Assembly (NCBI RefSeq): GCF_006965485.1
Contig: NZ_CP041360.1
Span: forward strand, 4,196,501-4,260,500
Source: Spirosoma sp. KCTC 42546
Lineage (GTDB): Bacteria; Bacteroidota; Bacteroidia; Cytophagales; Spirosomataceae
Length of the DNA stretch: 64,000 bases
Reading direction: 5' to 3'
Shown here: in pieces, positions 13,986 to 31,132 of the stretch
How the letters are laid out: each line of letters begins with the position of its first letter
How positions within the stretch are numbered: the first letter of the stretch is position 1
Notes under the pieces: model-generated
What the model saw: only the letters and a program-made list of their open reading frames with translations
What the model was told of the DNA's origin: nothing
Databases searched by the model: none
Program-made: the position numbers and the translations under genes

Positions 13986-14068
13986 AGGAAGGTTTTCTAT
14001 AAAGAGGTTGTATTCGCAATTGTAAGATAGGATTTCTTTGGTTAACCCGTAACCGTTAATTTGCAGGT

Positions 14069-15583: not shown

Positions 15584-15788
15584 TTGTAGGGCTTGTTGAG
15601 CAATGGGCTTTTTGAAAAGCCAACGTACAGGGCTTTCTTATTAATTCAATTTTCAATTCATGGTCAAAAGCATCACGTCGTTATGTTTCTGCTTTGCCGA
15701 TATGCCTATCGATCATTGTGTTAAGCGACACGGTTTTCAATTGATTGACTTTATCTTTCATTGCATGACATGGTAGGCCTAATATCAC

Positions 15789-15828
15789 AAAAAAACCGCT
15801 ACACCTACCTCGAAGGTAAGCATAGCGG
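15789..15828 (-). terminator. Intrinsic terminator of the DUF3050 gene
   Basis: Read on the minus strand, CCGCTATGCTTACCTTCGAG continues into GTAGGTGTAGCGG and a run of seven T. The stem is CCGCTA/TAGCGG with an inner TACCT/AGGTA helix. The rest of the 280-bp gap (15584-15862) shows no gene. Confidence 0.85.
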
Positions 15829-15862
15829 CAATCTACTCTTTGGGTTCCGCTCTTCTCTGGGG

Positions 15863-16678
15863 CTAAACCAAACGAGCCATCTCTGTCTCTTGATGATCCT
15901 TTCGCTTTTCCATTAACTCCTCATACACACAGTCCCAGAGGTCAATGCGTTTTTGCAAAGCCTGACGAACAGACTGTTCGGCTTCCAGCCAGTATTGTTC
16001 ATTCTCTCCGCATAGATTGGCCGTCATTTGTAGCGCTAGTTGGCTATGGTGATCACCGTCGACTTCAATGTGGCGTTCGAGGTAGTATTTGAAGATGGAC
16101 AGGCTATCCGGGAATTTCCTGTGCAGGTCGTTGATGATCGAAATAAACATGCCGGGAATCAGGTCTTCGCGCCCGAACGTAAACACCGCCGATTGCTGGT
16201 GCTCCCGATTACCCGAAATAATAGCAAAGGTAAAATTTACAAAATCGTTGGCGGCCTGCGGGGTTGCTGAGGCTGTAAACGCCTGATCGAAATCACCCGT
16301 TTCTTTCAGGATCGCGACAAATGTTTCTATTGGTACTGTATCAGCACCGCACTGTTGCATAGCATCCAGATACAGTTCAAAGTGGCTTTTACGGGTGCCG
16401 TCCATATCGACATCCGATTCTTCGCCGGCAACGATTTCATTGATTAAATAGCGAGTTTCCGCCGAGCCCTTCGGAAACCAGGGAACCGATGTACAAGTGA
16501 GATTAAGTTGCAGGGCCTTGAGTAGCGACATAAAATCCCAGACGGCAAATACGTGATACTGCATGAACACTCGGACATCGTCCACACTTTGAATGGCGTC
16601 ATACACCTTGTGGTTTATAATCTCCTGCCGCAACGGCTCAATTGATTGTTGAATTTGTTCAATTCGTGCATTCATCAT
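15863..16678 (-). CDS. DUF3050 (heme-oxygenase-like fold) protein
   Basis: This cytoplasmic protein of about 271 residues matches DUF3050, with MQYHVFAVWDFMSLLKALQ, SVPWFPKGSAETRYLINEIV and GEESDVDMDGTRKSHFELYL near the N-terminus and repeated His/Glu positions typical of the heme-oxygenase-like diiron or heme fold. The reaction is unknown. The frame stays open 75 codons further upstream, but those read through the long inverted repeat at 16740-16891, so the start is placed at the MMNARIEQ codons. It follows the histidine kinase on the same strand and may be the last gene of the efflux/two-component cluster. Confidence 0.85.
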   Translation of the reverse strand: MMNARIEQIQQSIEPLRQEIINHKVYDAIQSVDDVRVFMQYHVFAVWDFMSLLKALQLNLTCTSVPWFPKGSAETRYLINEIVAGEESDVDMDGTRKSHFELYLDAMQQCGADTVPIETFVAILKETGDFDQAFTASATPQAANDFVNFTFAIISGNREHQQSAVFTFGREDLIPGMFISIINDLHRKFPDSLSIFKYYLERHIEVDGDHHSQLALQMTANLCGENEQYWLEAEQSVRQALQKRIDLWDCVYEELMEKRKDHQETEMARLV

Positions 16679-16739
16679 TGGAAATAATTCACTGTTTTGG
16701 GTTGTATATACGACTGAAACCTGATAAAAGATGGCATAC

Positions 16740-16891
16740 GATGGCGCAAGGCCGGGCCACGCTGGCTCCAGCCTTGTGTCTATTATTTTCCGGCCTCTGG
16801 CCGGATTATCAAACGTATCTTTGTTACCGGCCAGAGGCCGGGGAATAGTAGACACAAGGCTGGAGCCAACGTGGCCCGGCCTTGCGCCATC
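16740..16891. repeat. Long inverted repeat with GGCCTCTGGCC core
   Basis: The left arm 16740-16804 and right arm 16827-16891 are 65 bp each with only a few mismatches, all transitions. Outer words are GATGGCGCAAGGCCGGGCC; the inner word is CCGGCCTCTGGCCGG. It separates the kinase stop from the DUF3050 start. Confidence 0.92.
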
Positions 16892-18170
16892 ACGAAAACC
16901 CAATTAAAAATTCGGTCCAGCCGTCTTCGTTGGTTTTAAGGGAGAACGAAAACTGGTGATTCAGGAGAATTTCGCGGGTGAGTGTCAGGCCGATACCCTG
17001 GCCTTCGGGCTTGGTGCTGTAGAATGGATTGAACAGATTGGCTTCAATATCATTGAGGATAGGCTCCCCATTATCACGAATAACCAGCTGGCGTGCCGTG
17101 CTGATCACCTCGACACGGTGGCCCGTTTCGCAGGCTTCGAGGGCATTTTTTACAATATTGACCAGCACCTGCTCCAGTTGCTCCACATCAACCACCTGAA
17201 CGTTAGCTTCTTTTCCGATGAATTGAAGACTAACACCCCGCAACTCGGCCTGTGGCTGCATTAACCGGACAACGCTTCGGGCAATTTCACCGATATCCAT
17301 AGCCCGCTTCTGGGGTTGCGGTAAACGCACGACATCAGCAAACCGGCGCATGAAGCGGTTCAGTCGGTCGTTGCGTTCGATGGCTACCCGAACGGCGTGT
17401 TGCACATCGGGATCAGCTACGTAGGACTGCGTCACATCGAGAATTGAATTAACAGCTCCGATGGAATTGTTCACTTCGTGCGCCATCATCCGGATTACTT
17501 TGCTGTAGGCTTTCTTCTCACTCGCCAGAATCTCGGAGGTGAGTTCCTCAATGATCAGAAACGAGCGTCGGAAACCGCGATCCATGAAATTCGACCGCAG
17601 GACTTTGTAGGTTTCAAGCCCATTGGGTTTCATAATCCGCGATTCACCATCGGCCAGATCAGCAATTTGGGCCAATAGCGAAAACCCAAGTTCCGCTAGT
17701 TGTTTCCCAACTACGTCGTCGGGGCGCACCGATAGCAGTTGACTGGCTCGTGGATTAACGGACGCGACATTCCCGTCGAAATCAAAAATCAGAATCGCAA
17801 TGGGGGCGGCTTCGATGAGTTTTTCCAGAAAAAACTGCTGTTCTACCTGCCGGGTCCGCTCCTGCCGAAGTTGGTCGATCATCAGATTATAGACGGTGAT
17901 CAATTCATCGACCTCCTGATTACCCGTCGGCACGAACTTGACCGTAAAGTCCTTATCCCGAATGGCTTCAATCCCCGAGGCAATGAATTCTGACGGCTGC
18001 TGGAACCGCCTGTAAATACTGATAGCCGCATACACAGACAGCAAAAGTCCGATTTCACTGGCAATGAACAGCAGCTTATTTTCCTGTAACACCAAAAACA
18101 GCAGCCCCGTCATTGCCAGATGAATAGCAATAATGTACAGCAAATAGCGGGTGCGAAAACTAACGTGCAT
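16890..18170 (-). CDS. NtrY-like sensor histidine kinase
   Basis: This 426-residue inner-membrane kinase has two membrane helices near the N-terminus (about 8-28 and 32-50), a short linker with HAMP-like spacing, a PAS domain (about 115-210, with AAPIAILIFDFDGNVASVNPRA), the phospho-acceptor His in MMAHEVNNSIGAVNS, and an ATPase domain with NALEAC, GEPILND and GQGIGLTL. It should phosphorylate the NtrC-type regulator encoded just upstream. The start at MHVSFRTRY avoids 12 codons that read through an inverted repeat. The very short periplasmic loop suggests it senses membrane or cytoplasmic signals. Confidence 0.9.
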   Translation of the reverse strand: MHVSFRTRYLLYIIAIHLAMTGLLFLVLQENKLLFIASEIGLLLSVYAAISIYRRFQQPSEFIASGIEAIRDKDFTVKFVPTGNQEVDELITVYNLMIDQLRQERTRQVEQQFFLEKLIEAAPIAILIFDFDGNVASVNPRASQLLSVRPDDVVGKQLAELGFSLLAQIADLADGESRIMKPNGLETYKVLRSNFMDRGFRRSFLIIEELTSEILASEKKAYSKVIRMMAHEVNNSIGAVNSILDVTQSYVADPDVQHAVRVAIERNDRLNRFMRRFADVVRLPQPQKRAMDIGEIARSVVRLMQPQAELRGVSLQFIGKEANVQVVDVEQLEQVLVNIVKNALEACETGHRVEVISTARQLVIRDNGEPILNDIEANLFNPFYSTKPEGQGIGLTLTREILLNHQFSFSLKTNEDGWTEFLIGFS

Positions 18171-18176
18171 ATAACT

Positions 18177-18263
18177 TAAACGCAAAGGGCGCAAAGGTAA
18201 GCGCAAAGAACGCGATGTAAATCTTAGCGCTCTTTGCGCTTACCTTTGCGCCCTTTGCGTTAA
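18177..18263. repeat. Intergenic inverted repeat, GCAAAGG words
   Basis: Arms of about 35 bp lie at 18177-18212 and 18228-18263 and pair with few mismatches; both contain GCAAAGGGCGCAAAGGTAAG. The spacer is about 15 bp. It lies between the response-regulator stop and the kinase start within one likely operon. Confidence 0.92.
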
Positions 18264-18269
18264 AAAAAA

Positions 18270-19643
18270 CTACTCCTCAGTATACGGGATGCCAAATTTC
18301 TCTAATCGGCGGTAGAGTGCAAAACGGGTGATGCCTAACGCTCGCGCTACTTTCGCTACCCGATTATGATGGAACGCCATAGCACGCTGAATCATTTGGT
18401 ATTCCATCTCCTCCAGGGTCATGGTGCCTACATCTGGCAGGGAGCTCGGGGCATGGAGCGGGGTGGTTACGTTTGATGTGAGGTTTCGCTCGAAGTCTTC
18501 GGTTTGCAATTCATCGTTCGAGGACAGGAGAACGGTTCGCTCAACCACGTTTTTCAACTGTCGGATATTGCCCGGCAACGCGAGGTTTTTCAGCCACTTC
18601 TGCGCCACCGGGCCTACGCGCAAGTCCGGGCGATTATAAATGGTTTTCAGGTTGGTTACGAAGTAGTTGACCAGCAATGGAATATCTCCAGGGCGCTCCC
18701 GCAAGGCAGGCAATCGAACGGTAATGAGGTTGATCCGGTAAAATAAATCTTCCCGAAACTGCCCTCTGCTGACCATCTCTTCGAGATTACGGTTAGTCGC
18801 ACAAATTACCCGCACATCAACCGTTTTAGATTTGCTACTGCCTAACGGTTCGAACGTCCGATCCTGCAACACGCGTAGTAATTTAACCTGACTGGCGGGA
18901 TCAAGATCCCCAATTTCGTCCAGGAAAATAGACCCTTTATTGGCCAGTTCGAAACGACCTACGCGATCGGTTTTGGCATCGGTAAAGGCACCCCGCACAT
19001 GCCCGAACAGTTCACTTTCGAAGAGTGTCGATGAAATACCACCCAGATTCACTTTCACAAACGGCTGGCGTTTCCGGCGACTGTTCTGGTGAATGGCTTC
19101 GGCAATGAGTTCCTTGCCCGTACCACTTTCGCCCGTTATCAATACGGGCGCATCGGTTGGCGATACGCGCCCGATGGTTGTCAGGATATCCAGCAAATTG
19201 GGGTCTTCGCCCACAATGTTATCGAACCGAAACTGCTGATCGAGTTTCCGACGATTGGGCGATGTCGATGCGGGTTGCGCCAGATTCAGCGCTGTTTGAA
19301 CCGCCTGAACGAGGTGATCATTTTGCCAGGGTTTCGTAATAAAATCCTTTGCTCCGGCTTTCATGCCTTCCACCGCCAGATCGATACTCCCCCATCCGGT
19401 AATCAGAATGACTGGTATGTTAGGCAGTCGTTCCCGAATTCGACGTAATAAACGCAGCCCATCATCGCCGGAAGTATCGACCGAGAAATTCATATCGAGC
19501 AAAATCAACTCAGGCACTTCCTCGTCCAGAACCTCAAAAGCCTCAAACGGCCCATCGGCAACGCGCACAGTAAATCCTTCTTTCCTGAACAACAGGGAAA
19601 GTGACGTTTGAATAGCAATATCGTCGTCGATGATGAGGAGCAT
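18270..19643 (-). CDS. NtrC-type sigma-54-dependent response regulator
   Basis: This 457-residue regulator has three modules. The receiver domain (about 1-120) has LLIIDDDIAIQ, the phospho-acceptor in LILLDMNFSVD, and the conserved Lys in FITKPW. The AAA+ domain (about 143-375) has Walker A GESGTGKE and the sigma-54-contact loop GAFTDA. A Fis-type helix-turn-helix closes the protein (VAKVARALGITRFALYRRLEKFG). It should activate RpoN promoters. Two candidate promoters with paired 16-bp palindromes are in the window, one ahead of its own efflux operon and one ahead of the PadR/permease operon. Confidence 0.94.
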   Translation of the reverse strand: MLLIIDDDIAIQTSLSLLFRKEGFTVRVADGPFEAFEVLDEEVPELILLDMNFSVDTSGDDGLRLLRRIRERLPNIPVILITGWGSIDLAVEGMKAGAKDFITKPWQNDHLVQAVQTALNLAQPASTSPNRRKLDQQFRFDNIVGEDPNLLDILTTIGRVSPTDAPVLITGESGTGKELIAEAIHQNSRRKRQPFVKVNLGGISSTLFESELFGHVRGAFTDAKTDRVGRFELANKGSIFLDEIGDLDPASQVKLLRVLQDRTFEPLGSSKSKTVDVRVICATNRNLEEMVSRGQFREDLFYRINLITVRLPALRERPGDIPLLVNYFVTNLKTIYNRPDLRVGPVAQKWLKNLALPGNIRQLKNVVERTVLLSSNDELQTEDFERNLTSNVTTPLHAPSSLPDVGTMTLEEMEYQMIQRAMAFHHNRVAKVARALGITRFALYRRLEKFGIPYTEE

Positions 19644-19649
19644 GTTTTT

Positions 19650-19757
19650 TTAATGAATAATGGATAATGAACAATGAATATTGGCGGGCTACAGTCTATT
19701 ATTCATTTTCGTCATTCATTTTACATTATCCATTTTACATTATTCATTATCCATTAA
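19650..19757. repeat. Intergenic inverted repeat, AATGGATAATG words
   Basis: The left arm is 19650-19684 and the right arm about 19698-19757. AATGAATAATGGATAATGAA is answered by an inverted, partly duplicated copy. Related words occur at 44118-44196 and 49518-49612. Confidence 0.8.
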
Positions 19758-19759
19758 TC

Positions 19760-20914
19760 TTATTCCTCATGCAACGCCACGGCGGGTTGAATCATGGCGG
19801 CTTGTCGGCTGGGGAAAAGGGCGCAGAGCGTGACAATGCCGTAAATGATAGCGACCGCAATCAGAATGGCGATTACATAAATGCTTGCCTGTAAGTCAAA
19901 TACGTTCAGCAAGGGAAATTGGGCGGCAAACAGCAAGCCAATTAGCATGGCAAAGGTAGCCAGTACCCAGATTTCGCCGATGAATTGGGTCGAAATTCCG
20001 TTTCCCGTGGCACCCAATGCCCGACGAAGGCCAATTTCACCCCGGCGTTTGGCAATACTTAGGTTCAGGACGCCAAATAAACCAAGGGCTACATTGATCA
20101 ATAAAAATCCGCTTACAATGAGCGCGATGATAATAGGTACCAAAACCAGATTATGCTGATTTTTACGCGAATCGGTCAGGTAATCCACTTCGACACTCCA
20201 GCCAGTCACCATCGACGCGATGTCTTTCACAACTTTGGCTTCAAACGTGGCATCCGTTCCGGGTTTCACTTTGATCAGCATCGTATCGATCCAGGTTGCA
20301 TTGGCCTTTGCTAGCTCAAACACAGCCGGTTTATTCGTCATAAATTCGCCCTTGGCTTTGAAATTATCGATCACACCAACAACCCGGAATCGCTCACCAA
20401 TAATTTTACCCAGCGGGTTTTCATCCCCAAATAAGCCTTCTCTGGCCTTCTGATTGATGATTACGGGCGTGTATTTACCTACACTGTCGGCATTTCGGTA
20501 CCAATGTCCTTCTGAAACGGGAATATCAAGCGTTTTTGCAAAGTTCTCATCGGTTGTGTAAAAGTCCGCGAGCACTTTTCGCTTTTTGTACTCAATACCA
20601 TTGTTCGTTTGATTCGCCGAAAATGGAAAGTTGCTACCCATCCGGGAAACAGATTCGACTTCCGGATACGCCTTCAATCGTTGCTGTACCCGCTGTAATT
20701 TGTCCGCGATTTCGGTCGTATCCTGGTTAGCCTTCAGGCCAATGGCCCAGACGTTTTCGTAGCGGAAGCCCAACGGCTCTGTGTAATTTCCAACGTTCAC
20801 AACAACCAGTGTTGCCAGTCCAAAAAGCACCATAAACGACGCCCAGATCTCGACGATCAGGAGAGCGTGTGCTTTCTTCTTATTCCAGATTAATTTAAAC
20901 AGATGAGGGATCAT
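19760..20914 (-). CDS. FtsX/MacB-type ABC transporter permease (second of pair)
   Basis: This 384-residue inner-membrane permease has an N-terminal helix (about 16-40), a large periplasmic MacB-core-like domain (about 45-245), and three C-terminal helices (about 260-375) with the FtsX cytoplasmic loop KRRGEIGLRRALGAT that contacts the ATPase. A start 21 codons further upstream would read through the inverted repeat at 20917-21004, so MIPHLFKLIW is used. With its neighbour it should form the heterodimeric membrane part of a tripartite pump. Confidence 0.9.
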   Translation of the reverse strand: MIPHLFKLIWNKKKAHALLIVEIWASFMVLFGLATLVVVNVGNYTEPLGFRYENVWAIGLKANQDTTEIADKLQRVQQRLKAYPEVESVSRMGSNFPFSANQTNNGIEYKKRKVLADFYTTDENFAKTLDIPVSEGHWYRNADSVGKYTPVIINQKAREGLFGDENPLGKIIGERFRVVGVIDNFKAKGEFMTNKPAVFELAKANATWIDTMLIKVKPGTDATFEAKVVKDIASMVTGWSVEVDYLTDSRKNQHNLVLVPIIIALIVSGFLLINVALGLFGVLNLSIAKRRGEIGLRRALGATGNGISTQFIGEIWVLATFAMLIGLLFAAQFPLLNVFDLQASIYVIAILIAVAIIYGIVTLCALFPSRQAAMIQPAVALHEE

Positions 20915-20916
20915 GA

Positions 20917-21004
20917 TTAAAGAGCGAAAGAGTGAATGAGCGAAAGAGTGCCTAAGTGATCCAGCCTTTTCGCTCATTCACTCATTCACTCTTTCGCTCT
21001 TTAA
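20917..21004. repeat. Intergenic inverted repeat, GAGCGAAAGAGTG words
   Basis: Arms at 20917-20950 and 20969-21004 share TTAAAGAGCGAAAGAGTGAA, with the word GAATGAGCGAA repeated inside. It lies between the two permease genes, against the stop codon of the upstream one. Confidence 0.88.
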
Positions 21005-22248
21005 GATTTGAGCGCTTCGGCAATGGTTAGTTTCGACATACGCAGGGCGGGCAACACGCCTGATAGGAGTCCGAAAATCAGGCACACGATCAGGCTGATT
21101 AAGAATACATTCAGATTGATGGTCAGATCGGCGTAGGCAATCATGCCGCTGGTATTGATCAAGTGAATGACAATCATTGTTAGGCCCAGTGCAATGGTAC
21201 CACCGATAAGAGTAATGAAAATATTCTCAACAATGAACTGCCAGACCAGCGTTTTTACGGGTGCACCAAAGGCTTTCCGAATACCAATTTCAGAGGCTCG
21301 TTCCATAATTCGGCTGACATTTATATTGACTAAGTTGATTGCCGGTAAGCCCATCAACATGAATAGAACAAACGTGATCACTCCGAAAAAAATAGTCTTG
21401 ATTCCAGAGTTCCCCTCCAGGATAGGCCCTATAAAATTATCCAGATAGGACTCGCCCTTCACCTCCAGTACCGAATAGTTAAATCCATCCTGGATACCGG
21501 GCAATGGGATACGGTCGATATGACTCTTGAACTCCTCCTGAATAGCCGGTAGGTCGGTTTTATCTTTCGCCAATATCATCGCCACATACCCGCCCCGCAT
21601 TCCGGTGGCCTGGTAATTACTTTTGGGAGTCGTGTACGGGAAGTAAACATCAGCATAGGTAAACGGTCGGGTAGCCGGACTGGCCTTCACTACGCCAATT
21701 ACCTTATAATGAATGTTTTCGATTTCAACATCCTTACCAACAACGGGTTCGTCAGCATTGTCAAAATAGTGCTTCTTGAAATCATCGGTAATGACCGCCA
21801 CGTTTTCGCCATTGGCCATATTCTGTTCATTGTACGGCTTGCCTTCCAGAAAGTCAAAGTCGGTTACCTGCCAGAAATCGGCATCGGTGAATTTGGTATT
21901 GAGTTTAATTTTCTGTGACCCCACATAGGCATTGGAGCTATTGATAAAGGTGGTGATCGTTACTCGTTCAGGCGTTTTCAGCGACTTGGCGTAGTCTGTC
22001 AAAAACTTAAAACTCATGGGCCCCGAGCTATTCGACGTCCGACTCGAATCCTGCAGCCGCATTTGCATGATATAAAGCATCCGATCCCGCTTATTTTCAG
22101 GGTAATGGCTCCCAATCAGGTGATCGAGAAAGGAGGTCAGCACCATCATCACGGTCAGTGTCAGGCTGATGCCGAAAAGGGTAATGAAGGTGTAAAAGGG
22201 ATGCCGCAGCAACACCTTCCAGGCGATTTTTATGTAGTTCAGTAGCAT
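21001..22248 (-). CDS. FtsX/MacB-type ABC transporter permease (first of pair)
   Basis: This 415-residue inner-membrane protein begins MLLNYIKIAWKVLLRHPFYT with a first helix at about 18-42, a MacB-core periplasmic domain (about 45-280), and three C-terminal helices. The ATPase-contact loop is ERASEIGIRKAFGAPVKT. It starts immediately after a GTCATT-type repeat downstream of the ATPase gene. The dimer with the following permease would transmit ATP-driven motion through the adaptor to the TolC channel, either expelling a periplasmic substrate or acting as a mechanotransmission pump. Confidence 0.9.
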   Translation of the reverse strand: MLLNYIKIAWKVLLRHPFYTFITLFGISLTLTVMMVLTSFLDHLIGSHYPENKRDRMLYIMQMRLQDSSRTSNSSGPMSFKFLTDYAKSLKTPERVTITTFINSSNAYVGSQKIKLNTKFTDADFWQVTDFDFLEGKPYNEQNMANGENVAVITDDFKKHYFDNADEPVVGKDVEIENIHYKVIGVVKASPATRPFTYADVYFPYTTPKSNYQATGMRGGYVAMILAKDKTDLPAIQEEFKSHIDRIPLPGIQDGFNYSVLEVKGESYLDNFIGPILEGNSGIKTIFFGVITFVLFMLMGLPAINLVNINVSRIMERASEIGIRKAFGAPVKTLVWQFIVENIFITLIGGTIALGLTMIVIHLINTSGMIAYADLTINLNVFLISLIVCLIFGLLSGVLPALRMSKLTIAEALKS

Positions 22249-22380
22249 AATTTGTAGTCATTAGTTGTCATTTGATGGCCATTAATAGTCATTTGATGGT
22301 CAGTTGAAAGTCATTATTTGCTGGTAGAACATGACAACGAATGACAACTAAATGACTACAATGACCATAAATGACAATTT
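22249..22380. repeat. Intergenic inverted repeat, GTCATT words
   Basis: The left half (22249-~22305) contains several TGTAGTCATTAGTTGTCATT-like words. The right half (22332-22380) carries inverted versions such as AATGACAACTAAATGACTAC. Pairing is interrupted but extensive. A related repeat is at 28636-28740. Confidence 0.8.
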
Positions 22381-23041
22381 ATAAAACCTGCGTTCCGTCG
22401 AACAGTCGAATGAGTCTATGCGTGCGTTTGGCCATTTGCTCGTCGTGGGTAACCATCACGATGGTGGCGCCGTCGTCGTTGAGTTGCTGGAGAATGTTCA
22501 TGATTTCGTTGCCCATCGCACTGTCGAGGTTGCCAGTTGGTTCATCGGCAAGTATGATATGGGGGTTCCCAACGATGGCACGGGCAATGGCAACCCGCTG
22601 TTTCTGTCCACCCGATAACTGCTTCGGAAAGTGCTTCATGCGGTTACTCAAGCCTACTTTAGAAAGGGCCTCTTTGGCGTACTCCTGACGTGGCTTACCG
22701 TTGGTCGAACGATACAGCAACGGAATCTCGACATTATCGAGCACTGACAGGTCGTTGATGAGGTGGAAGCTCTGAAAAATGAAGCCGATCTTCTGGTTAC
22801 GCAGTCGGGCCAGTTCCTTGTCGGTGTACTTCGTGACCGGCTGCCCATCCAGTTGAACCGTGCCCTTCGAGGGTTCATCGAGCAGGCCCATGACGTTGAG
22901 CAGGGTACTCTTGCCGCAACCCGACGGCCCCATAATCGAGACGAACTCGCCTTTCCTGATGTCCAGGTTGATGTTGTTCAGCGCCAGCGTTTCGATGGTG
23001 CTGGTCCGGTAGACTTTTTCGATGTTTTGGAGAGAGATCAT
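22379..23041 (-). CDS. MacB/LolD-type ABC transporter ATPase
   Basis: This 220-residue ATPase belongs to the MacB/LolD/FtsE group. It has Walker A GPSGCGKS (about 39-46), the Q-loop IFQSFHLI, signature LSGGQKQR, and Walker B HIILADEPTGNLDS. It should drive the two FtsX-type permeases encoded next to it. It has no membrane segment, so nucleotide-binding and permease functions are on separate chains. It is co-directional with the TolC gene upstream, from which a purine-rich inverted repeat separates it. Confidence 0.93.
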   Translation of the reverse strand: MISLQNIEKVYRTSTIETLALNNINLDIRKGEFVSIMGPSGCGKSTLLNVMGLLDEPSKGTVQLDGQPVTKYTDKELARLRNQKIGFIFQSFHLINDLSVLDNVEIPLLYRSTNGKPRQEYAKEALSKVGLSNRMKHFPKQLSGGQKQRVAIARAIVGNPHIILADEPTGNLDSAMGNEIMNILQQLNDDGATIVMVTHDEQMAKRTHRLIRLFDGTQVL

Positions 23042-23046
23042 AGTTT

Positions 23047-23157
23047 TAAAGGAGGAAGGAGAAAAGGGAAGAGAGGGAGGAAGGGTTAAGCGGATAAGTG
23101 AATGAATAATTTTTTTATTCCTTCTCCCTTTCCACCCCCTCCTCCCTTTTCTCCTTC
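23047..23157. repeat. Intergenic inverted repeat, purine/pyrimidine arms
   Basis: The left arm (23047-23085) and right arm (23119-23157) share AAGGAGAAAAGGGA-type words with imperfect pairing. It lies between the TolC and ATPase genes. Confidence 0.75.
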
Positions 23158-24625
23158 ATTTTAGTTTCTGGTTTGTGTCAAAATCGTATAAGGTTAATAA
23201 GCGAAGGGTGTAGTAGGCTTGCCAGTAATCGCGCAGGGCCAGGATGGCATCGCGACGGGCGCGGTCTTTTTCCTGCGTGGCAATGCCTAAGTCGGTCACA
23301 CTGAGGTCGCTTAATTTAAAGCGATCCTGCGCAATCTGGTAGCGGCTCTGGCCAATCTGGTCGGCTTTGGCAGTGAGCGTCACTTGCTGGCGAAGCATTT
23401 GTAATAGCGTCACCTGCGTAAAAATCTCCTGTTCGAAAGTGAGTTTATCCTGCTCGACGGTTTGCTGCGCCAGTTCCCGGTTTGCCTTTGCCGTTTCGAC
23501 AATGGCCTGCGCGCGGCCCCAGGTCATAATGGGTAGCGTAAATTGAAGCGAGACATATTCCCGGTTCTGCGGACGAACGTACACGTCAATGAGACTGGGG
23601 CCTTGATTCGACAAACCGTATCCTGCCGTTAATGTCGCGTTCAGACCATTGTTTTTGCGCGCTTTTTCCAGATCCCGTTCAGCCTCCAGCAGCCGACGTT
23701 TGAACGCAATGGCTGCCGCCCGATTGGCCGTGGCCTCGTTGATCGCCCGATTCACATCGACCGTCAGATCAGGAATCTGGTTGGGAATGGCCAATTCAAG
23801 CGGGCGCGTTTGGCTAATCACCGAACGATCGTTTGCTTCCGTTCGATAGCCAATAAACGTCTTCAGTTTGAGCGACGCCACAGCTGCCGTTTGCCGCGCC
23901 GATGCCAGGTCTTTCTCGGCATTGAGTACGCTCAGTTGCAATTGTAACAAATCGTTCTGCGAAATTTTGCCAAGGTCTAGTTTGTGGAGCGCAATGTGAT
24001 AAAGGGTATCATTATTGACACGGTTGGTTTCGGCAATTTGCAGATTCACTTGCGACACCAGCAGATCAAAATACAGGTTGGTGGCCGTTAGTGAAACCTG
24101 TTCGAGCGATTCGATCAGTTGCTGATTTCCCTCGGCAAATAACAGTGGCTGGATTTTCTTATCCCAGCGCATCTGGTTGAACTGGAACAGCGGCTGCGAC
24201 AGGCCAATGCCAAACGGAATGCCATTATAAAGCGTGCTATTCTGAATGAAATTATCGAACCGCTGGAGCTGTTTCTGAACAAAAATCGTCCCGCCCGTTG
24301 GGGCAATCGTTTGACTCAGCGACAAATTCAGGATCGAGTTATTATACGATACGGGCTCAAACCGAATGTTCCCATCGGGCTGCGTCACCTGCACATACGA
24401 GCGGGTGAAATTAGGCAAGGACCCATCCAAACTGAGCTGCGGTTTAAACTGAGCCAGAAACGAGCGATAAGCCCAGATGTTCGTACGCTGTTGCGTGTTA
24501 GCCCGTTTCGCCGACACCGACTGTGCCTGCGCCAGTTGCAAAACCTCGTTCAGGGTCGTGACTTGTGCCGATGTTTGCCCAACGATCCCAAGTAAACCCA
24601 GTATGACTAAGTAAAAGCGGTTCAT
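23156..24625 (-). CDS. TolC-family outer-membrane efflux protein
   Basis: This 489-residue exported protein has a signal peptide (MNRFYLVILGLLGIVGQTSAQ) and two homologous halves rich in long coiled-coil helices, as in TolC. There is a SLSQTIAPTGG beta segment in the first half and ISQNDLLQLQLSVLNAEKDLA with LTFEQEIFTQVTLLQMLRQQ in the helical parts. It should trimerise to form the outer-membrane duct for the pump built from the neighbouring HlyD adaptor and ABC proteins. It lies 11 bp after the adaptor gene, so the two are almost surely cotranscribed. Confidence 0.92.
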   Translation of the reverse strand: MNRFYLVILGLLGIVGQTSAQVTTLNEVLQLAQAQSVSAKRANTQQRTNIWAYRSFLAQFKPQLSLDGSLPNFTRSYVQVTQPDGNIRFEPVSYNNSILNLSLSQTIAPTGGTIFVQKQLQRFDNFIQNSTLYNGIPFGIGLSQPLFQFNQMRWDKKIQPLLFAEGNQQLIESLEQVSLTATNLYFDLLVSQVNLQIAETNRVNNDTLYHIALHKLDLGKISQNDLLQLQLSVLNAEKDLASARQTAAVASLKLKTFIGYRTEANDRSVISQTRPLELAIPNQIPDLTVDVNRAINEATANRAAAIAFKRRLLEAERDLEKARKNNGLNATLTAGYGLSNQGPSLIDVYVRPQNREYVSLQFTLPIMTWGRAQAIVETAKANRELAQQTVEQDKLTFEQEIFTQVTLLQMLRQQVTLTAKADQIGQSRYQIAQDRFKLSDLSVTDLGIATQEKDRARRDAILALRDYWQAYYTLRLLTLYDFDTNQKLK

Positions 24626-24636
24626 AGCGGTCTGGG

Positions 24637-25896
24637 TTAGTGTTTCGGCTCAATGGTGATTTCTTCCAGATGCTCGTACTGGCTCAGATCGGTCAGGATG
24701 ATTTGTTCTCCCGGCTGAATCCCCGACTTTATTTCTACGAAATCAAAGTTGGATAGACCTAACGCGATCTCCCTACGGTGCGCTACCTGACTCCCTTTCG
24801 GTAACACATATACGTACTGGGTTCGCTTGCCTTTGAAGGCGGGACCGTTAGCTACCCGTACGGCCTTTGCCACTCGATCAGTGATGACGAACACTTCCAC
24901 TTTCATATTCGGACGAAGGGACGCGTGGTGGCTGTTATCCAGTTGAATCACAAACTGCACAATCCCATTTTTCACGGCGGGTTTCACCTGCGTAATGAGC
25001 CCCCGCAGATTGGTTTCATTTACTTTAACCGTAACCATTAGCCCTACTTTAACCTGATCGGCATACACATCAGAACACGACCCTTCAACCCGAAAACTCG
25101 CCAGATCGGCCAGTTTGGCCAGCATTTCGCCTTCGTTGACGGCTGAGCCGATGTTCTCATTTACCCAGGTCAGCACACCCGGCCGGTCGGCAATAATATT
25201 GGCCTGTTTTAGTTTGTGAGTCAGTTCTTTCAGGTTCTTTTCTTCAATCTGCGCCTGTAAGGTCGTTTCGCGCAGGCTGGCGCTCATCGACTGTCGATTG
25301 TAAGTGAGGTCGTTCTCTAACTGCTTTTTTTCCAGTTCGGCCACACGAAGGGCATTTTCGGCGCGGGTCACATCTTCGCCTGTGCTCCCGCCTACTTTCT
25401 GCAATCGTTTGGTCCCTTCCAGATCAGCCCGTAGCCGATTGATGTTGAGCAGCTTTATCTGATCATTCACTTCGGCATCGTACAGGCTTTTATTCAACTT
25501 CATGCGCAACTGATCGATGCCGTTCCGTTTCAGCGCCAGCTGGTCATTGAGTTTTTCCAATTCAATTTCGGTGAGCGACTTATCGAGATCCATAATAGGC
25601 TGACCCGCTTTTACCGACGTACCCGGTGTCAGTAATATCCGACGGATACTGGCCCGAATGGGACTGGTATAGATCTGCTCGTAAGCGGGAATGACTTCAC
25701 CCGTGGCATTCAGGGAGTTTTCGACCGGCCCAATTTCGGCAGTGGCCAGACGAATTCGATCGGCCTCGACAGACGTTTTGAGCGCATTCCGTGTCCAGAG
25801 AATGACCAGTGCCAACACAACAACAGCCGTCACCCCAATAAGCAGGTTCCGATTGCGGCCACGGTTGGCGATCTCTGGGGCAAGTTCTTTATCCAT
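24637..25896 (-). CDS. HlyD/MacA-type periplasmic adaptor
   Basis: This 419-residue protein has one N-terminal membrane helix (about 22-42, LLIGVTAVVVLALVILW). After it come a barrel-sandwich lipoyl half (IYTSPIRASIRRILLTPGTSVKAGQPIM), a long coiled coil (about 120-230), the second lipoyl half (DRPGVLTWVNENIGSAVNEGEMLAKL), and beta-barrel domains. It bridges the FtsX permeases and TolC across the periplasm. The start at MDKELAPEIANRG is chosen because the upstream 11 codons overlap the expected leader of the sigma-54-type promoter. It is the first gene of the efflux operon. Confidence 0.92.
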   Translation of the reverse strand: MDKELAPEIANRGRNRNLLIGVTAVVVLALVILWTRNALKTSVEADRIRLATAEIGPVENSLNATGEVIPAYEQIYTSPIRASIRRILLTPGTSVKAGQPIMDLDKSLTEIELEKLNDQLALKRNGIDQLRMKLNKSLYDAEVNDQIKLLNINRLRADLEGTKRLQKVGGSTGEDVTRAENALRVAELEKKQLENDLTYNRQSMSASLRETTLQAQIEEKNLKELTHKLKQANIIADRPGVLTWVNENIGSAVNEGEMLAKLADLASFRVEGSCSDVYADQVKVGLMVTVKVNETNLRGLITQVKPAVKNGIVQFVIQLDNSHHASLRPNMKVEVFVITDRVAKAVRVANGPAFKGKRTQYVYVLPKGSQVAHRREIALGLSNFDFVEIKSGIQPGEQIILTDLSQYEHLEEITIEPKH

Positions 25897-25923
25897 TTTC
25901 TGTGTTGTATGACACAGATAGAG

Positions 25924-25941
25924 AGCCAAACAACGTGCCAG
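25924..25941 (-). promoter_or_regulatory. Sigma-54-type promoter of the efflux operon
   Basis: Read on the minus strand, CTGGCACG is an exact match to the -24 box, followed after correct spacing by TTGG where TTGC is expected (GG-N10-GG rather than GG-N10-GC). Predicted transcript start is near 25914, about 18 bases before the adaptor ATG. The imperfect -12 is the only weakness. Confidence 0.65.
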
Positions 25942-25992
25942 GAGGCAATCTACTAGAAGTCAATTAGTTGGCAGAGATTAGCTTAAATAAAA

Positions 25993-26028
25993 TGTGCGAT
26001 TTCGCACATTTTATTGCGATTTCGCACG
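25993..26028. promoter_or_regulatory. Two phased 16-bp palindromes, likely NtrC-type enhancer sites
   Basis: TGTGCGATTTCGCACA at 25993-26008 is a perfect palindrome (extended to 24 bp, 25989-26012). ATTGCGATTTCGCACG at 26013-26028 is a second copy, 20 bp further on, two helical turns away. Their centres lie about 87 and 107 bp upstream of the predicted sigma-54 start site, typical for a bacterial enhancer-binding protein. Confidence 0.7.
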
Positions 26029-26048
26029 CGTGTTTTTGTCATCCCGAA

Positions 26049-26092
26049 GAATGAGGGATCTCAAGTTTCCTGACGCTTGAGATCCCTCATTC
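26049..26092. repeat. 17-bp perfect hairpin
   Basis: GAATGAGGGATCTCAAG at 26049-26065 pairs perfectly with its complement at 26076-26092 around a 10-base loop. It lies between the enhancer sites and the larger palindrome. Confidence 0.85.
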
Positions 26093-26097
26093 CCGAC

Positions 26098-26220
26098 GTT
26101 CTCGCTTGGCTTCGCCGAGTGAGGATTATTTTTTGACGGCCTCTGGCCGGTGAATTATGTCAAAAACGGGCCAGAGGCCCTTGAAACGATAGTCCTCACT
26201 CGGCGAAGCCAAGCGAGAAC
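26098..26220. repeat. Long inverted repeat, CTCGCTTGGCTTCGCCGAG arms with GGCCTCTGGCC core
   Basis: The left arm 26098-26150 and right arm 26167-26220 pair over most of their length. The outer word is GTTCTCGCTTGGCTTCGCCG; the inner word is GGCCTCTGGCC. A second copy of the same family is at 61423-61569. Confidence 0.9.
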
Positions 26221-26346
26221 GGTGTGTCAGGTGTAAGCACCTGGCATCACAATCACCATAAATCTTCTCCCCTACAAAAGGCAGTTCCAAAAGCTTTTCG
26301 TACCTTTTTACCCCATTACCATAGCCAATGGATTTCCCGTCAAAAA

Positions 26347-28635
26347 ATGATGAAAATTACTTTTACAATCCTCTTCCAATTCCTCGTTTTCCTCTCTTAC
26401 GCTCAACAGAATCTGGTTCCCTACGTACAACCGCTGATTGGCACCGAAAAAATGGGACATACCTTTCCTGGCGCTACGGTGCCGTTTGGGTCGGTTCAGT
26501 TAAGCCCAGATTCGGACACGTTATCGTACGAATTTAATGGCAAATACAATGGCGATGTTTATCGATACTGTGCGGGTTATAAATACGAAGACAAAACGAT
26601 TGTCGGGTTTAGTCATACCCATTTCAGCGGTACGGGGCACTCGGACCTTGGTGACTTTCTGATTATGCCCACGCAGGGGGCTTTACAACTCAATCCGGGC
26701 GTGGCGTCGAATCCCAAGGGTGGCTATCGGTCGGCGTTTTCGCACGCGAATGAGGTGGCCGAAGCGGGGTATTATAAAGTCAAACTTGACGATGATGCCA
26801 TTACCGCCGAGCTGACTGCTTCCAGTCGGGTTGGTTTTCATCAGTACACATTTCCAAAGTCGGATCAGTCGCACATTATTCTGGATTTGACGCACGGTAT
26901 TTACAATTACGAGGATAAAGTGGTCTGGACGTACGTGCGGGTGGTCAACGACACACTGATAACGGGTTATCGGCAAACCAACGGCTGGGCACGCACCCGA
27001 ACGGTGTATTTTGCCCTATCGTTTTCGAAACCCTTTAAATCATACGGACAGCAAAACCTGGATAAACCGCAGGTGTATAAGGGCTTCTGGCGGAAGTTCG
27101 ATCAGACCAAAAACTTCCCGGAACTAGCGGGCAAGAAGATTCGGATGTATTTCGACTTCGATACGAACGAGGGCGAGAAAGTTAAACTAAAAATGGCCTT
27201 ATCGCCGGTTAGTCAGGAAAATGCGCTGGCCAACATGCAAACCGAAATCCCGCACTGGAACTTCGAGCAGACAAAAGCACGAGCCCAGGCCGACTGGAAT
27301 AAGGAGTTGAACAAAATCCAGATCGACGCATCGGAAACCGACAAAGTAAACTTCTATACATCGCTCTATCACTCGTTTATCAACCCAACCACCTATATGG
27401 ATGCGAATGGGCAATATAAAGGGTTGGATCAGGGTGTGCATCAGGCGGGTGGGTTTACGAATTATACGACGTTTTCACTGTGGGATACCTATCGGGCGCT
27501 GCATCCATTCTTGAATCTTACACAACCCGCTCGCTCTAACGATATGGTGCAGTCTATGATGGCCCATTACGACCAAAGCGCACTCAAAATGCTGCCCATC
27601 TGGTCGCATTACGCCAATGACAACTGGTGTATGAGTGGGTATCACAGCGTATCGGTGCTGGCCGATGCTATTATCAAGGGTGTCTATAAAGGCGATGCCC
27701 AGAAAGCGCTGGATGCCTGCATAGCCACCTCCAACCACCGTGATTACGAAGGCATTGGGGAGTACATAGACAAAGGGTTTATTCCTGAGAATACAAATAG
27801 AACCTCCGTCTCGAACACGCTTGAGTATGCGTATGACGATTGGTGCATTGCCCAGTTGGCGAAGAAACTGAATCGGCCCGATGTGTATGCCACCTATCTC
27901 AAACGCTCCGAAAACTGGAAGAACGTCTACGATACGTCCATTGGGTTTATGCGTCCCCGCCTGGCCGATGGCTCGTTCAAAAAAGAGTTTGATGTATTGA
28001 AAACGGATGGGCAAGGCTTTATTGAGGGCAATTCCTGGAACTTCAGTTTTTTTGTACCACAAAATCCAGCAGCCCTGATGCAAGTAATGGGTGGGCCCAA
28101 AAAGTTTGCCACCCGGCTCGACTCGCTCTTTTCGATGCATTTGCCGGATGAGTTTTTTGCCGAAACGGAAGATATTACCCGCGAAGGAATCATTGGTGGG
28201 TACATTCACGGCAACGAACCAGCGCACCACATTGCCTACCTGTACAACTGGGCGGGGCAGTCCTGGAAAACGCAGGAACGCGTCCGGATGATCCTCAACA
28301 TGCAATACAAATCCACTCCCGACGGCTTGGGCGGCAATGATGATTGTGGCCAGATGAGCGCCTGGTACATGTTCTCTTCGATGGGTTTTTACCCGGTAGC
28401 ACCCGGTTCCGAAGAATACTCGCTGGGAAGTCCTTCGGTCAAAAACGCCCGCTTGAACCTGGAAAATGGCCAGACGTTTACCATCGAAGCCATCAATCAG
28501 GGCGATAAAAATGTGTATGTGCAGAAGGTGCTGTTGAATGGCAGGGAATTGACGCGGCCCATAATTACGCATTCGGATATTTTGAAAGGCGGGAAACTAA
28601 CGTTTTACATGAGCGCGAAACCAACGAAAAAATAG
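26347..28635 (+). CDS. GH92 family alpha-mannosidase
   Basis: This is a calcium-dependent exo-alpha-mannosidase (often alpha-1,2) of about 762 residues, exported by the signal MMKITFTILFQFLVFLSYAQ. GH92 landmarks are PLIGTEKMGHTFPGATVPFG and VQLSPDSD at the mature N-terminus, IVGFSHTHFSGTGHSDLGD, HGNEPAHHIAYLYNWAG, and the catalytic block GGNDDCGQMSAWYMFSSMGF near the C-terminus. It would trim mannose from host or environmental glycans in the periplasm or at the cell surface. An upstream in-frame start at 26224 would read from the repeat region, so the first Met of the signal peptide is used. No SusCD pair is adjacent. Confidence 0.93.
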   Translation: MMKITFTILFQFLVFLSYAQQNLVPYVQPLIGTEKMGHTFPGATVPFGSVQLSPDSDTLSYEFNGKYNGDVYRYCAGYKYEDKTIVGFSHTHFSGTGHSDLGDFLIMPTQGALQLNPGVASNPKGGYRSAFSHANEVAEAGYYKVKLDDDAITAELTASSRVGFHQYTFPKSDQSHIILDLTHGIYNYEDKVVWTYVRVVNDTLITGYRQTNGWARTRTVYFALSFSKPFKSYGQQNLDKPQVYKGFWRKFDQTKNFPELAGKKIRMYFDFDTNEGEKVKLKMALSPVSQENALANMQTEIPHWNFEQTKARAQADWNKELNKIQIDASETDKVNFYTSLYHSFINPTTYMDANGQYKGLDQGVHQAGGFTNYTTFSLWDTYRALHPFLNLTQPARSNDMVQSMMAHYDQSALKMLPIWSHYANDNWCMSGYHSVSVLADAIIKGVYKGDAQKALDACIATSNHRDYEGIGEYIDKGFIPENTNRTSVSNTLEYAYDDWCIAQLAKKLNRPDVYATYLKRSENWKNVYDTSIGFMRPRLADGSFKKEFDVLKTDGQGFIEGNSWNFSFFVPQNPAALMQVMGGPKKFATRLDSLFSMHLPDEFFAETEDITREGIIGGYIHGNEPAHHIAYLYNWAGQSWKTQERVRMILNMQYKSTPDGLGGNDDCGQMSAWYMFSSMGFYPVAPGSEEYSLGSPSVKNARLNLENGQTFTIEAINQGDKNVYVQKVLLNGRELTRPIITHSDILKGGKLTFYMSAKPTKK

Positions 28636-28750
28636 ATGGTCATTGATGGTCATTAGGTTGTCATTAATAGTCATTCATTGTGGATAATCTATCAATGACA
28701 ACGAATGACCATCAATGACAACCTAATGACCATCAATGACAATGAATGAT
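28636..28750. repeat. Intergenic inverted repeat, GTCATT words, between convergent genes
   Basis: TTGATGGTCATTAGGTTGTC at about 28643 pairs perfectly (23 bp in all) with its complement at 28714-28736. Further GTCATT/AATGAC words flank both arms. It lies between the convergent GH92 and DUF4421 genes and could act as a bidirectional terminator. Confidence 0.9.
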
Positions 28751-28753
28751 AAC

Positions 28754-29848
28754 TTACAAACCAGGAACCTGTTTGATGATCCCTTTCGGTCGATAGCGGA
28801 TTCGCTTACCGAACACCAGTCGAAGATAACTCGTGTTCGTGTTGATCAAACCATTCGAAAAGGTCCGGTTCATCAGCGTGGTTGATCCATATAATCCGCC
28901 ATAAAAGATACTCGAACTATAACCAATCGTTGCCGATGCAATTCCCTCCCAGCCCGGCTGTATGTGCGTTTCGGAACCCGATGTTTCGCCACTGCTTTGT
29001 TGTAGCATAATCGTTAGTCCCGGCCGTACGGTGAAACTGACAAAATAGTGTTTGCGATAAACAAACGTCTGGCTGTACCCCAGATCGATGCCCACGGCCA
29101 CCGATTTAAGATTTAGCAGATTCGACTCGGGCCGAAAATCAGCCTGCAACGCAGTGGGTACCAGGGACGAATCGGCCCGTATGAGCTGATAGGTTATCGA
29201 AGCCCCAACATTCCAGGAACTTGCGCCTTTGCGTTGTTCTTCCCGCTGAAGCAATGTGGCTGGTGTCGAGAGCTGGAGCGGATTGAACTGGTACAGCAAC
29301 CGGCTCGACACCGTCTGGCTCCGAAGATCATTGCGATACGGATACGCCGAATTATGGTCAAACCAATTCGCCTGAAGGATGTCGGGATTGCTCAAATAAA
29401 AACCGCGATAAAACTGGTATTGCGTTGATAACCAGAACCGGCGGTTGTTTAAATTGATAGTCACTCCAAACGGTTTGGTCTTTCCCCGGAGGTCGTTATT
29501 GTAGCCAAAGAATGGCAGTTTAACCGTTATTTCCGTTCCGAACCATTTGTAGTTGACCCCCAGACCCAGCGACCAGGCCAGATTGGGCCTGTAAACCAAC
29601 GTATTCGGCGAACCAACCACCCGCAGGGTATAATCCTGACGGTCGCTGACGGCATATAAATGTAACTGTCGATAATAAGTCGTTATGTAGGCTTTGTCGA
29701 CCCGTGGTATCTTGGTTTTCAGCAACGTATCCAGCGGAATACCCAACAAACTAAGGCCCTGTCCAAAACTGCCAATGTGGCTACCCATCAGCAGGATAAG
29801 CAGTAACCATCGCCCCAAAATAACCTTACCCATGCGTAAACAGGACAT
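28754..29848 (-). CDS. DUF4421 outer-membrane-like protein
   Basis: This 364-residue protein has a signal segment (about 9-30, ILGRWLLLILLMGSHIGSFGQ) followed by DUF4421. The domain has alternating polar and hydrophobic stretches ending in aromatic residues that look like a beta-barrel: YITTYYRQLHLYAVS, LAWSLGLGVNYKWFGTEITVKLPFFG, NRRFWLSTQYQFYRGFYL. An outer-membrane barrel location is inferred; function is unknown. An alternative start is the Met at 29833. The gene is isolated, between two inverted repeats. Confidence 0.8.
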   Translation of the reverse strand: MSCLRMGKVILGRWLLLILLMGSHIGSFGQGLSLLGIPLDTLLKTKIPRVDKAYITTYYRQLHLYAVSDRQDYTLRVVGSPNTLVYRPNLAWSLGLGVNYKWFGTEITVKLPFFGYNNDLRGKTKPFGVTINLNNRRFWLSTQYQFYRGFYLSNPDILQANWFDHNSAYPYRNDLRSQTVSSRLLYQFNPLQLSTPATLLQREEQRKGASSWNVGASITYQLIRADSSLVPTALQADFRPESNLLNLKSVAVGIDLGYSQTFVYRKHYFVSFTVRPGLTIMLQQSSGETSGSETHIQPGWEGIASATIGYSSSIFYGGLYGSTTLMNRTFSNGLINTNTSYLRLVFGKRIRYRPKGIIKQVPGL

Positions 29849-30991: not shown

Positions 30992-31001
30992 GTAGTTTAT
31001 A

Positions 31002-31121
31002 GATGGCGCGAACGTCTACGTTCGTGCTGATTATTCCCCGGCCTCTGGCCGGAAGTTAAGTAATAGCCAACCGGCCAGAGGCCGGGGAATAGTCGGCACG
31101 AACGTAGACGTTCGCGCCATC
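31002..31121. repeat. Long inverted repeat, GCGAACGTCTACG arms with GGCCTCTGGCC core
   Basis: The 51-bp arms 31002-31052 and 31071-31121 match at 49 positions. The outer word is GATGGCGCGAACGTCTACG and the inner word CCCCGGCCTCTGGCCGG. Both mismatches would be G-U pairs in a plus-strand RNA. Confidence 0.93.
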
Positions 31122-31132
31122 TCATCGCGCTA

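Follow-up and report, generated by a model that had tools for sequence, protein, structure and literature searches.

The window, a 64,000-nucleotide stretch of the Spirosoma sp. KCTC 42546 genome (contig NZ_CP041360.1), carries on its minus strand seven consecutive genes for an exporter, a response regulator and a sensor kinase. The genes were assigned in a profile scan that covered ten proteins of the window.

24637-25896, minus strand: HlyD-type periplasmic adaptor (membrane fusion protein), start ATG 25896 (Pfam/NCBIfam and relatives)
23156-24625, minus strand: TolC-type outer-membrane factor (Pfam/NCBIfam)
22379-23041, minus strand: ABC ATPase, DarD/LolD/MacB-like (Pfam/NCBIfam)
21001-22248, minus strand: FtsX/MacB permease 1, matching the N-terminal half of ADOP (profiles and solved structures)
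19760-20977, minus strand: FtsX/MacB permease 2, matching the C-terminal half of ADOP (Pfam/NCBIfam)
18270-19643, minus strand: NtrC-type response regulator with a receiver, a sigma-54 AAA+ domain with a GAFTDA loop and a Fis-type HTH with a LGITRFALYRRL helix (profiles)
16890-18206, minus strand: sensor kinase, likely start ATG near 18170 (profiles and reading by eye)

The adaptor, TolC-type protein, MacB-fold permease and ATPase would together form a MacB-type tripartite exporter. The two permeases cover positions 5-400 and 416-803 of the 803 positions of ADOP and, because they match its N- and C-terminal halves, represent a split form; the nearest solved structures of permease 1 are an ABC permease (5xu1) and MacB. 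The sequence-only reading had proposed an HlyD-TolC-FtsX pump, and these parts were all recovered, but the term "FtsX pump" had compressed a separate ABC ATPase and two permeases into one.

That reading had also placed an NtrC-type regulator and a kinase in the same cluster, and both were identified by their Pfam/NCBIfam domains. The regulator matches PF00072, PF00158 and PF02954 above cut-off, and its GAFTDA loop is one change from GAFTGA, the loop of NtrC-type enhancer-binding regulators. Its best NCBIfam match is AtoC (386 bits; cut-off 714), and its nearest solved structures are NtrC-family regulators. The genome encodes RpoN (one PF04552 match, E 7.8e-55). Ten of its sigma-54 activators are clear, and five more PF00158 matches score weakly, at 22-35 bits.

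The kinase has two hydrophobic helices joined by a link of ~6 residues (QENKLLF), a HAMP-like stretch, a PAS domain and a kinase ATPase domain. Nine kinase rows were compared, of which L030 was mis-extracted; a link of ~6 residues was seen by eye in seven further relatives, and a hydropathy count gave 2-6 overlapping segments, with 0 in three. Because so few residues join the helices, sensing probably takes place in the membrane or in the cytoplasm.

A one-genome-per-species collection was scanned with the adaptor, and the best 80 of 110 relatives were kept; these include Spirosoma, Larkinella, Dyadobacter, Emticicia and Mucilaginibacter. In 76 of these best 80, the seven genes have the same order and strand; in L050, L069, L084 and L094, which lie on contigs of 3.7-15.1 kb, some later genes had no match. 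More widely, an adaptor relative was found at E 1e-20 or better in 30 of 295 genomes of a class-wide sample, and at E 1e-60 in 89 of 150 genomes of the family. A DUF3050 gene (15863-16903, weak haem-oxygenase-like match) was considered as a part of the system and rejected, since it lies beside the kinase in only 1 of 80 relatives, S. telluris.

Many of the gaps between genes contain long near-perfect hairpins of repeated short words that differ between gaps and between species. The window gaps noted in this respect are 16740-16891, 18176-18264, 19651-19759, 20917-21004, 23055-23157, 28636-28743 and 31001-31122. Among operon gaps of 60-320 nt from relatives, a fold z below -3 was obtained for ATPase-permease (41/59), permease-regulator (32/47), TolC-ATPase (21/48), permease 1-2 (10/24), regulator-kinase (9/17) and adaptor-TolC gaps (5/35), and for none of 80 coding controls.

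Promoter element and middle block

The region upstream of the adaptor gene contains the following features.

25892-25922, minus strand: predicted hairpin; left arm 25912-25922 straddles the predicted transcription start, right arm reaches the start codon
25914, minus strand: predicted transcription start, placed by canonical spacing 26 nt downstream of the first T in the -24 element
25926-25940, minus strand: -24/-12 element of sigma-54 type, TGGCACGTTGTTTGG (sequence inspection and relatives)
25946-25970, minus strand: conserved middle block TAANNNNYTGATW-N3-YAR-N4-TTA, of which the window copy begins CAACTAATTGACT (73-promoter alignment)
25986-26015, no strand: proximal putative operator, a perfect inverted repeat with the core GTGCG-N4-CGCAC at 25994-26007 (sequence and relatives)
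26015-26027, no strand: distal putative operator TGCGATTTCGCAC, core 26015-26026, with its centre 20 bp beyond the proximal one

The sequence-only reading had described a correctly spaced sigma-54 promoter, and the element is present on the minus strand at 25926-25940. It is preceded by a C, and 10 bases separate its two GG pairs, which is the canonical sigma-54 spacing. From this spacing the predicted start falls at 25914, as had been proposed, and the coordinates and distances given for the promoter region proved right. The adaptor open reading frame as called mechanically begins at TTG 25929; the start kept in relatives is ATG 25896. At -12 the element has GG; the base at -12 is G in the window where the consensus has C, and this C is not kept in relatives.

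Genome-wide, the -24/-12 pattern alone gave 23 matches compared to 15 in a reversed control, i.e. little above chance, and comparison among relatives was therefore needed. We aligned 73 non-redundant promoters out of 88 (L090 was left out), in which the -24 columns are invariant by construction. By contrast, the -15 and -13 positions were unused in site selection, except for four anchors placed by eye (L147, L152-L154); T occupies -15 in 100% and G occupies -13 in 87% of the promoters. Besides the near-chance count of the motif alone, two observations count against a sigma-54/NtrC-type switch, the reading that we favour: the -12 base varies (G46/A20/C20 in the 73 promoters), and the -12 element is irregular in Dyadobacter.

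If the -24/-12 match were a chance motif, the operon could instead be read from a house-keeping promoter. The near-chance genome count would fit this explanation; however, the -24 and -12 elements lie at a fixed distance from the operator in the 73 non-redundant promoters, and none of the 80 loci has the house-keeping-type pattern TTG-N17-23-TAnnTTTG in the 300 bp preceding the adaptor, compared to 1 of 80 in the reversed control. We consider a house-keeping promoter very unlikely. An Rfam scan of 14000-29000 at gathering thresholds gave no match.

Between the operator and the promoter element, the middle block has 0-1 mismatch to YAANNNNTTGATW at one fixed register in 35 of the 73 non-redundant promoters, and this register is the best one in 41 of the 73. 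The block resembles the E. coli IHF consensus, WATCAANNNNTTR, at a fixed place, and the window copy has one mismatch. Searched together with the -24 element, the block gave 23 genome-wide matches with one mismatch compared to 9 in the reversed control. Counting against the favoured reading, the genome contains a single PF00216 match for the HU/IHF family, which makes a classical IHF heterodimer of that family unlikely as the protein binding the block.

Paired palindromes and the co-encoded regulator

The proximal palindrome consists of two perfect arms of 14 nt each (25986-25999 and 26002-26015), and the 13-mer TGCGATTTCGCAC is exactly common to both palindromes. Their centres lie 86.5 and 106.5 bp upstream of 25914. 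The two palindromes, the 20-bp spacing and the positions near -87 and -107 had been noted in the sequence-only reading; its size of 16 bp for each did not hold, the proximal one being longer and the distal one shorter than 16 bp.

Within the 8,664,091-bp genome, the exact 12-mer TGCGAAATCGCA has two copies, both at this promoter, and 38 more places match with one mismatch. GTGCGNNNNCGCAC occurs at two places, here and within a 1611-nt open frame, and the reversed control also gave two; the half-site pattern GTGCG-N4-CGCAC has its one further copy within an open frame. Outside open frames, no other gene sharing the exact operator pattern was found in the genome. Inside the operon gaps of relatives, exact GTGCG-N4-CGCAC was present at 0 loci across six gap classes, and TTGGYAY..TTG matched in 3 of 76 permease-regulator gaps and 1 of 49 adaptor-TolC gaps. 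Because the only other exact operator copy sits inside an open frame, the predicted circuit looks dedicated to the pump operon.

Across the window and 79 relatives (L084, with only 2 nt upstream, was left out of the promoter counts), the distance between the proximal palindrome and the -24 T is 59-62 bp in 77 of 80 promoters, some of this narrowing being built in by a search that allowed 56-65 bp; 74 of 80 keep at least 8 of the 10 fixed half-site bases. Another 20 bp out, the distal site is conserved roughly as GT-T/C-C-N6-C-R-CAC among 51 promoters with a phenylalanine-type regulator helix (see below; L090 left out), despite being a poor palindrome in many species. Just 7 of 80 loci have a divergent GH92 gene upstream, and the operator therefore follows the pump. 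In the window, a palindromic element of ~125 bp (26097-26224) separates this gene from the pump promoter; with 26033-26225 as the query, 85 matches were obtained on both strands together, i.e. ~42 places in the genome.

We further analysed 35 adaptor loci (37 match rows minus the window itself and G285). A regulator gene is nearby in 30 of these, two of which were found only on reading further. Of these 30, 24 have an operator site that passes the threshold and 17 have one that reaches a stricter score of 8. By contrast, no site was found in the five loci without a regulator within the 13-18 kb fetched, or in any of the 35 reversed sequences. Counting against the favoured reading, six of the 30 regulator-linked loci are below threshold and seven of the 24 passing sites are weak (6-7 of 9).

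Moreover, the half-site differs with one residue of the regulator recognition helix. This count comprises 85 of 88 loci (L050, L069 and L094 lack regulator sequence; L090 was left out). With phenylalanine in the helix (LGITRF), the third half-site position is G/C in 58 of 63 loci, the remainder being three with T/C and two where the scorer took the distal site. With serine, asparagine or glycine, G/C is found there in 0 of 22 loci; an earlier, narrower scoring gave 2 of 22, both weak misplacements (L085 and L152; scores 5 and 4 of 10). This covariation points to the co-encoded NtrC-type regulator as the protein that would bind the palindromes, and may reflect a single evolutionary switch.

The same genome encodes a diverged paralogous pump (L115, G000:C1:1217000-1233000) with a 794-aa permease frame, a divergent regulator and the same promoter layout. 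Its regulator is 44% identical and has a glutamine helix (LSRQ); GTCCG-N4-CGGAC lies 62 bp before TGGCATGACATTGGC, and the same middle block was recognized by eye.

Two other roles for the palindromes were weighed. In the first, a repressor or an unrelated regulator binds them, while the NtrC-type regulator has its target at another place; a palindrome by itself does not reveal which protein binds it. Yet the operator goes both with a nearby regulator gene and with the residue in the recognition helix of that regulator, and a tandem spacing and a position near -87/-107 are those of enhancer sites; binding by another protein seems improbable to us. The two conserved sites 20 bp apart are the paired upstream sites predicted for an NtrC-type regulator.

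In the second, the proximal palindrome is mainly an intrinsic terminator or an insulator and the promoter lies elsewhere. In most species this palindrome is followed by a T-rich run (76-86% T at offsets -51 to -49). In Dyadobacter, each of the seven loci checked has an open frame of ~1300 nt on the same strand that stops 39-56 bp short of the palindrome centre. On the other hand, a terminator scan of 25850-26300 gave five sites, none at 25986-26015, and the upstream gene in the window is divergent. Also against this role are the conservation of a distal site that is a poor palindrome in many species, the variation of the half-site with the regulator helix, and the lack of a site in the five relatives without a regulator in the stretch. 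While a role mainly in termination or insulation appears improbable, if marginally less so than binding by another protein, the palindrome may double as a terminator, above all in Dyadobacter.

A predicted hairpin at the start codon

The left arm of the hairpin at 25892-25922 corresponds to positions -8 to +3 relative to the predicted sigma-54 start in the window. Consequently, a proper sigma-54 transcript would be without most of this arm.

We compared the own left arm with swapped arms in 55 non-redundant leaders (L089, L090 and L093 left out). In 16 of 55 promoters the own arm ranked within the top 5% of swaps, and in 13 of 55 a shorter arm did so, compared to 3, 5 and 4 of 55 for three controls; a fourth control, the -24/-12 block, reached 10 of 55, which may reflect the few dissimilar swaps there. 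The own arm was in the best 5% in 9 of 31 promoters of the short-leader group and in 0 of 24 of the long-leader group. In the short-leader group, the predicted unpaired value of the start region was 0.52 in RNA beginning at -11, 0.60 with swapped 5' pieces and 0.66 in RNA beginning at +1; the values were 0.64 and 0.59 in the long-leader group and 0.38 and 0.78 in the window. Over 79 leaders, the mean fold z was only -0.95, with values below -1 in 33 (L089 was left out because its leader exceeds the length limit).

Folding thus suggests, less certainly than the promoter layout, an extra feature of one species group in which a hairpin would lock the start codon in read-through RNA. Against this lock, none was seen in Dyadobacter, even though a same-strand gene ends just upstream there. 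Long adaptor leaders of L043-L046 and other Dyadobacter and Telluribacter contain a nearly constant TTAGCCATGAA, often in a hairpin loop, around which the stem changes sequence between species. A leader peptide beginning at the constant ATGAA in Dyadobacter was considered and rejected, because by eye the frames differ or stop.

A start-codon lock is described for phage T4 gene e, in which, in the portion of the account available (PMC3014915), the left arm of the hairpin is likewise positioned at the start of the proper transcript or upstream of it, so that only longer RNAs are locked. Compared to that portion (PMC3014915), the lock here differs in being predicted, in lying at a sigma-54 promoter and in occurring in one subset of species.

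Proposed switch and related systems

The promoter, the palindromes, the pump and the regulator stay together in relatives, and the comparison in this way supports the original proposal of a pump under the predicted control of sigma-54 and an NtrC-type regulator. In total, we think it highly probable that this is the control region of a seven-gene MacB-type tripartite exporter operon that is switched by its own NtrC-type regulator via sigma-54. Upon a signal, the kinase would phosphorylate the regulator, which would assemble on the tandem pair of palindromes ~87 and ~107 bp upstream, contact the sigma-54 RNA polymerase waiting at the -24/-12 element and open the promoter; an HU/IHF-type protein on the middle block would bend the DNA in between. 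Transcription would depend on RpoN, and the seven genes would be read as one transcript; the direction of regulation, i.e. activation, we infer. Because the regulator and kinase genes lie in the operon, activation would reinforce itself, and gene order suggests autoregulation. An internal promoter for the regulator of the form TTG-N17-23-TAnnTTTG was found in 5 of 76 permease-regulator gaps compared to 1 of 76 in the reversed control; none is general, and we count this against the proposed switch.

The predicted system shares with the NtrC/AtoC/ZraR type the order of receiver, AAA+ and HTH domains, the paired upstream palindromes, the -24/-12 promoter and the adjacent regulator and kinase genes. 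It differs in that the regulator scores below the curated cut-offs of the 25 families listed, has GAFTDA for GAFTGA and would control a MacB-type exporter, and in that the kinase has almost no periplasmic part. As in MacAB-TolC/ADOP, there are an adaptor, a TolC-type protein, an ATPase and an FtsX/MacB permease; here, however, the ATPase is separate and the permease is split into two genes, which score 147 and 153 bits compared to the ADOP cut-off of 622.3 for a single duplicated permease. With the darobactin exporter DarBCD, the resemblance is of the ATPase to DarD (267.9 bits; cut-off 375) and of the adaptor to DarC (78.9 bits; cut-off 450), both below cut-off.

Bce-type modules such as BceAB-BceRS, as far as the accounts consulted describe them, similarly have an FtsX-type transporter beside an intramembrane-type kinase, and the two helices with a very short loop of ~6 residues are those of a Bce-type kinase. 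Bce-type modules comprise an OmpR-type regulator and a BceB-type permease. Neither was found here: the regulator is NtrC-type, and the transporter is a MacB-type tripartite pump with permeases that match MacB and ADOP. The likeness is functional only. A further, rather doubtful extension is that the operon is controlled in two one-way layers, its own sigma-54 activator opening it and the start codon being shut in RNA begun upstream, and that the intramembrane-type kinase would make it a Gram-negative counterpart of the Bce type with the state of the pump or the membrane as the signal. We have not met this combination of two layers in described form elsewhere.

A paper on this pump operon was not found in the open-licence literature searched. 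A 2025 survey, as far as its text was available, predicted sigma-54 control of COG0577 FtsX-type permeases in Bacteroidia from promoter matrices and called this first evidence (PMC12316311). Unlike the present analysis, that text does not give operators, architecture or regulator pairing (PMC12316311), and the terms palindrom-, upstream activat- and IHF are absent from its main text (PMC12316311). The operon appears to be a well-defined new variant of sigma-54/NtrC control, the target of which would be a split MacB-type exporter accompanied by a kinase of the intramembrane type.

Regulation by sigma-54 has received little study in Bacteroidota, and the link to FtsX-type transporters could, in the available text of the survey, only be predicted (PMC12316311). 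The operon offers a complete testable unit with a promoter, two putative operators, a possible bend element, a regulator with a pairing residue and a kinase. Moreover, a kinase of this type confines the likely site of the signal to the membrane or the cytoplasm, and the match between helix residue and half-site allows a prediction, for other species, of which regulator would bind which pump promoter. With a control-region layout that is nearly constant in many related bacteria, a little-studied gene switch becomes directly testable.
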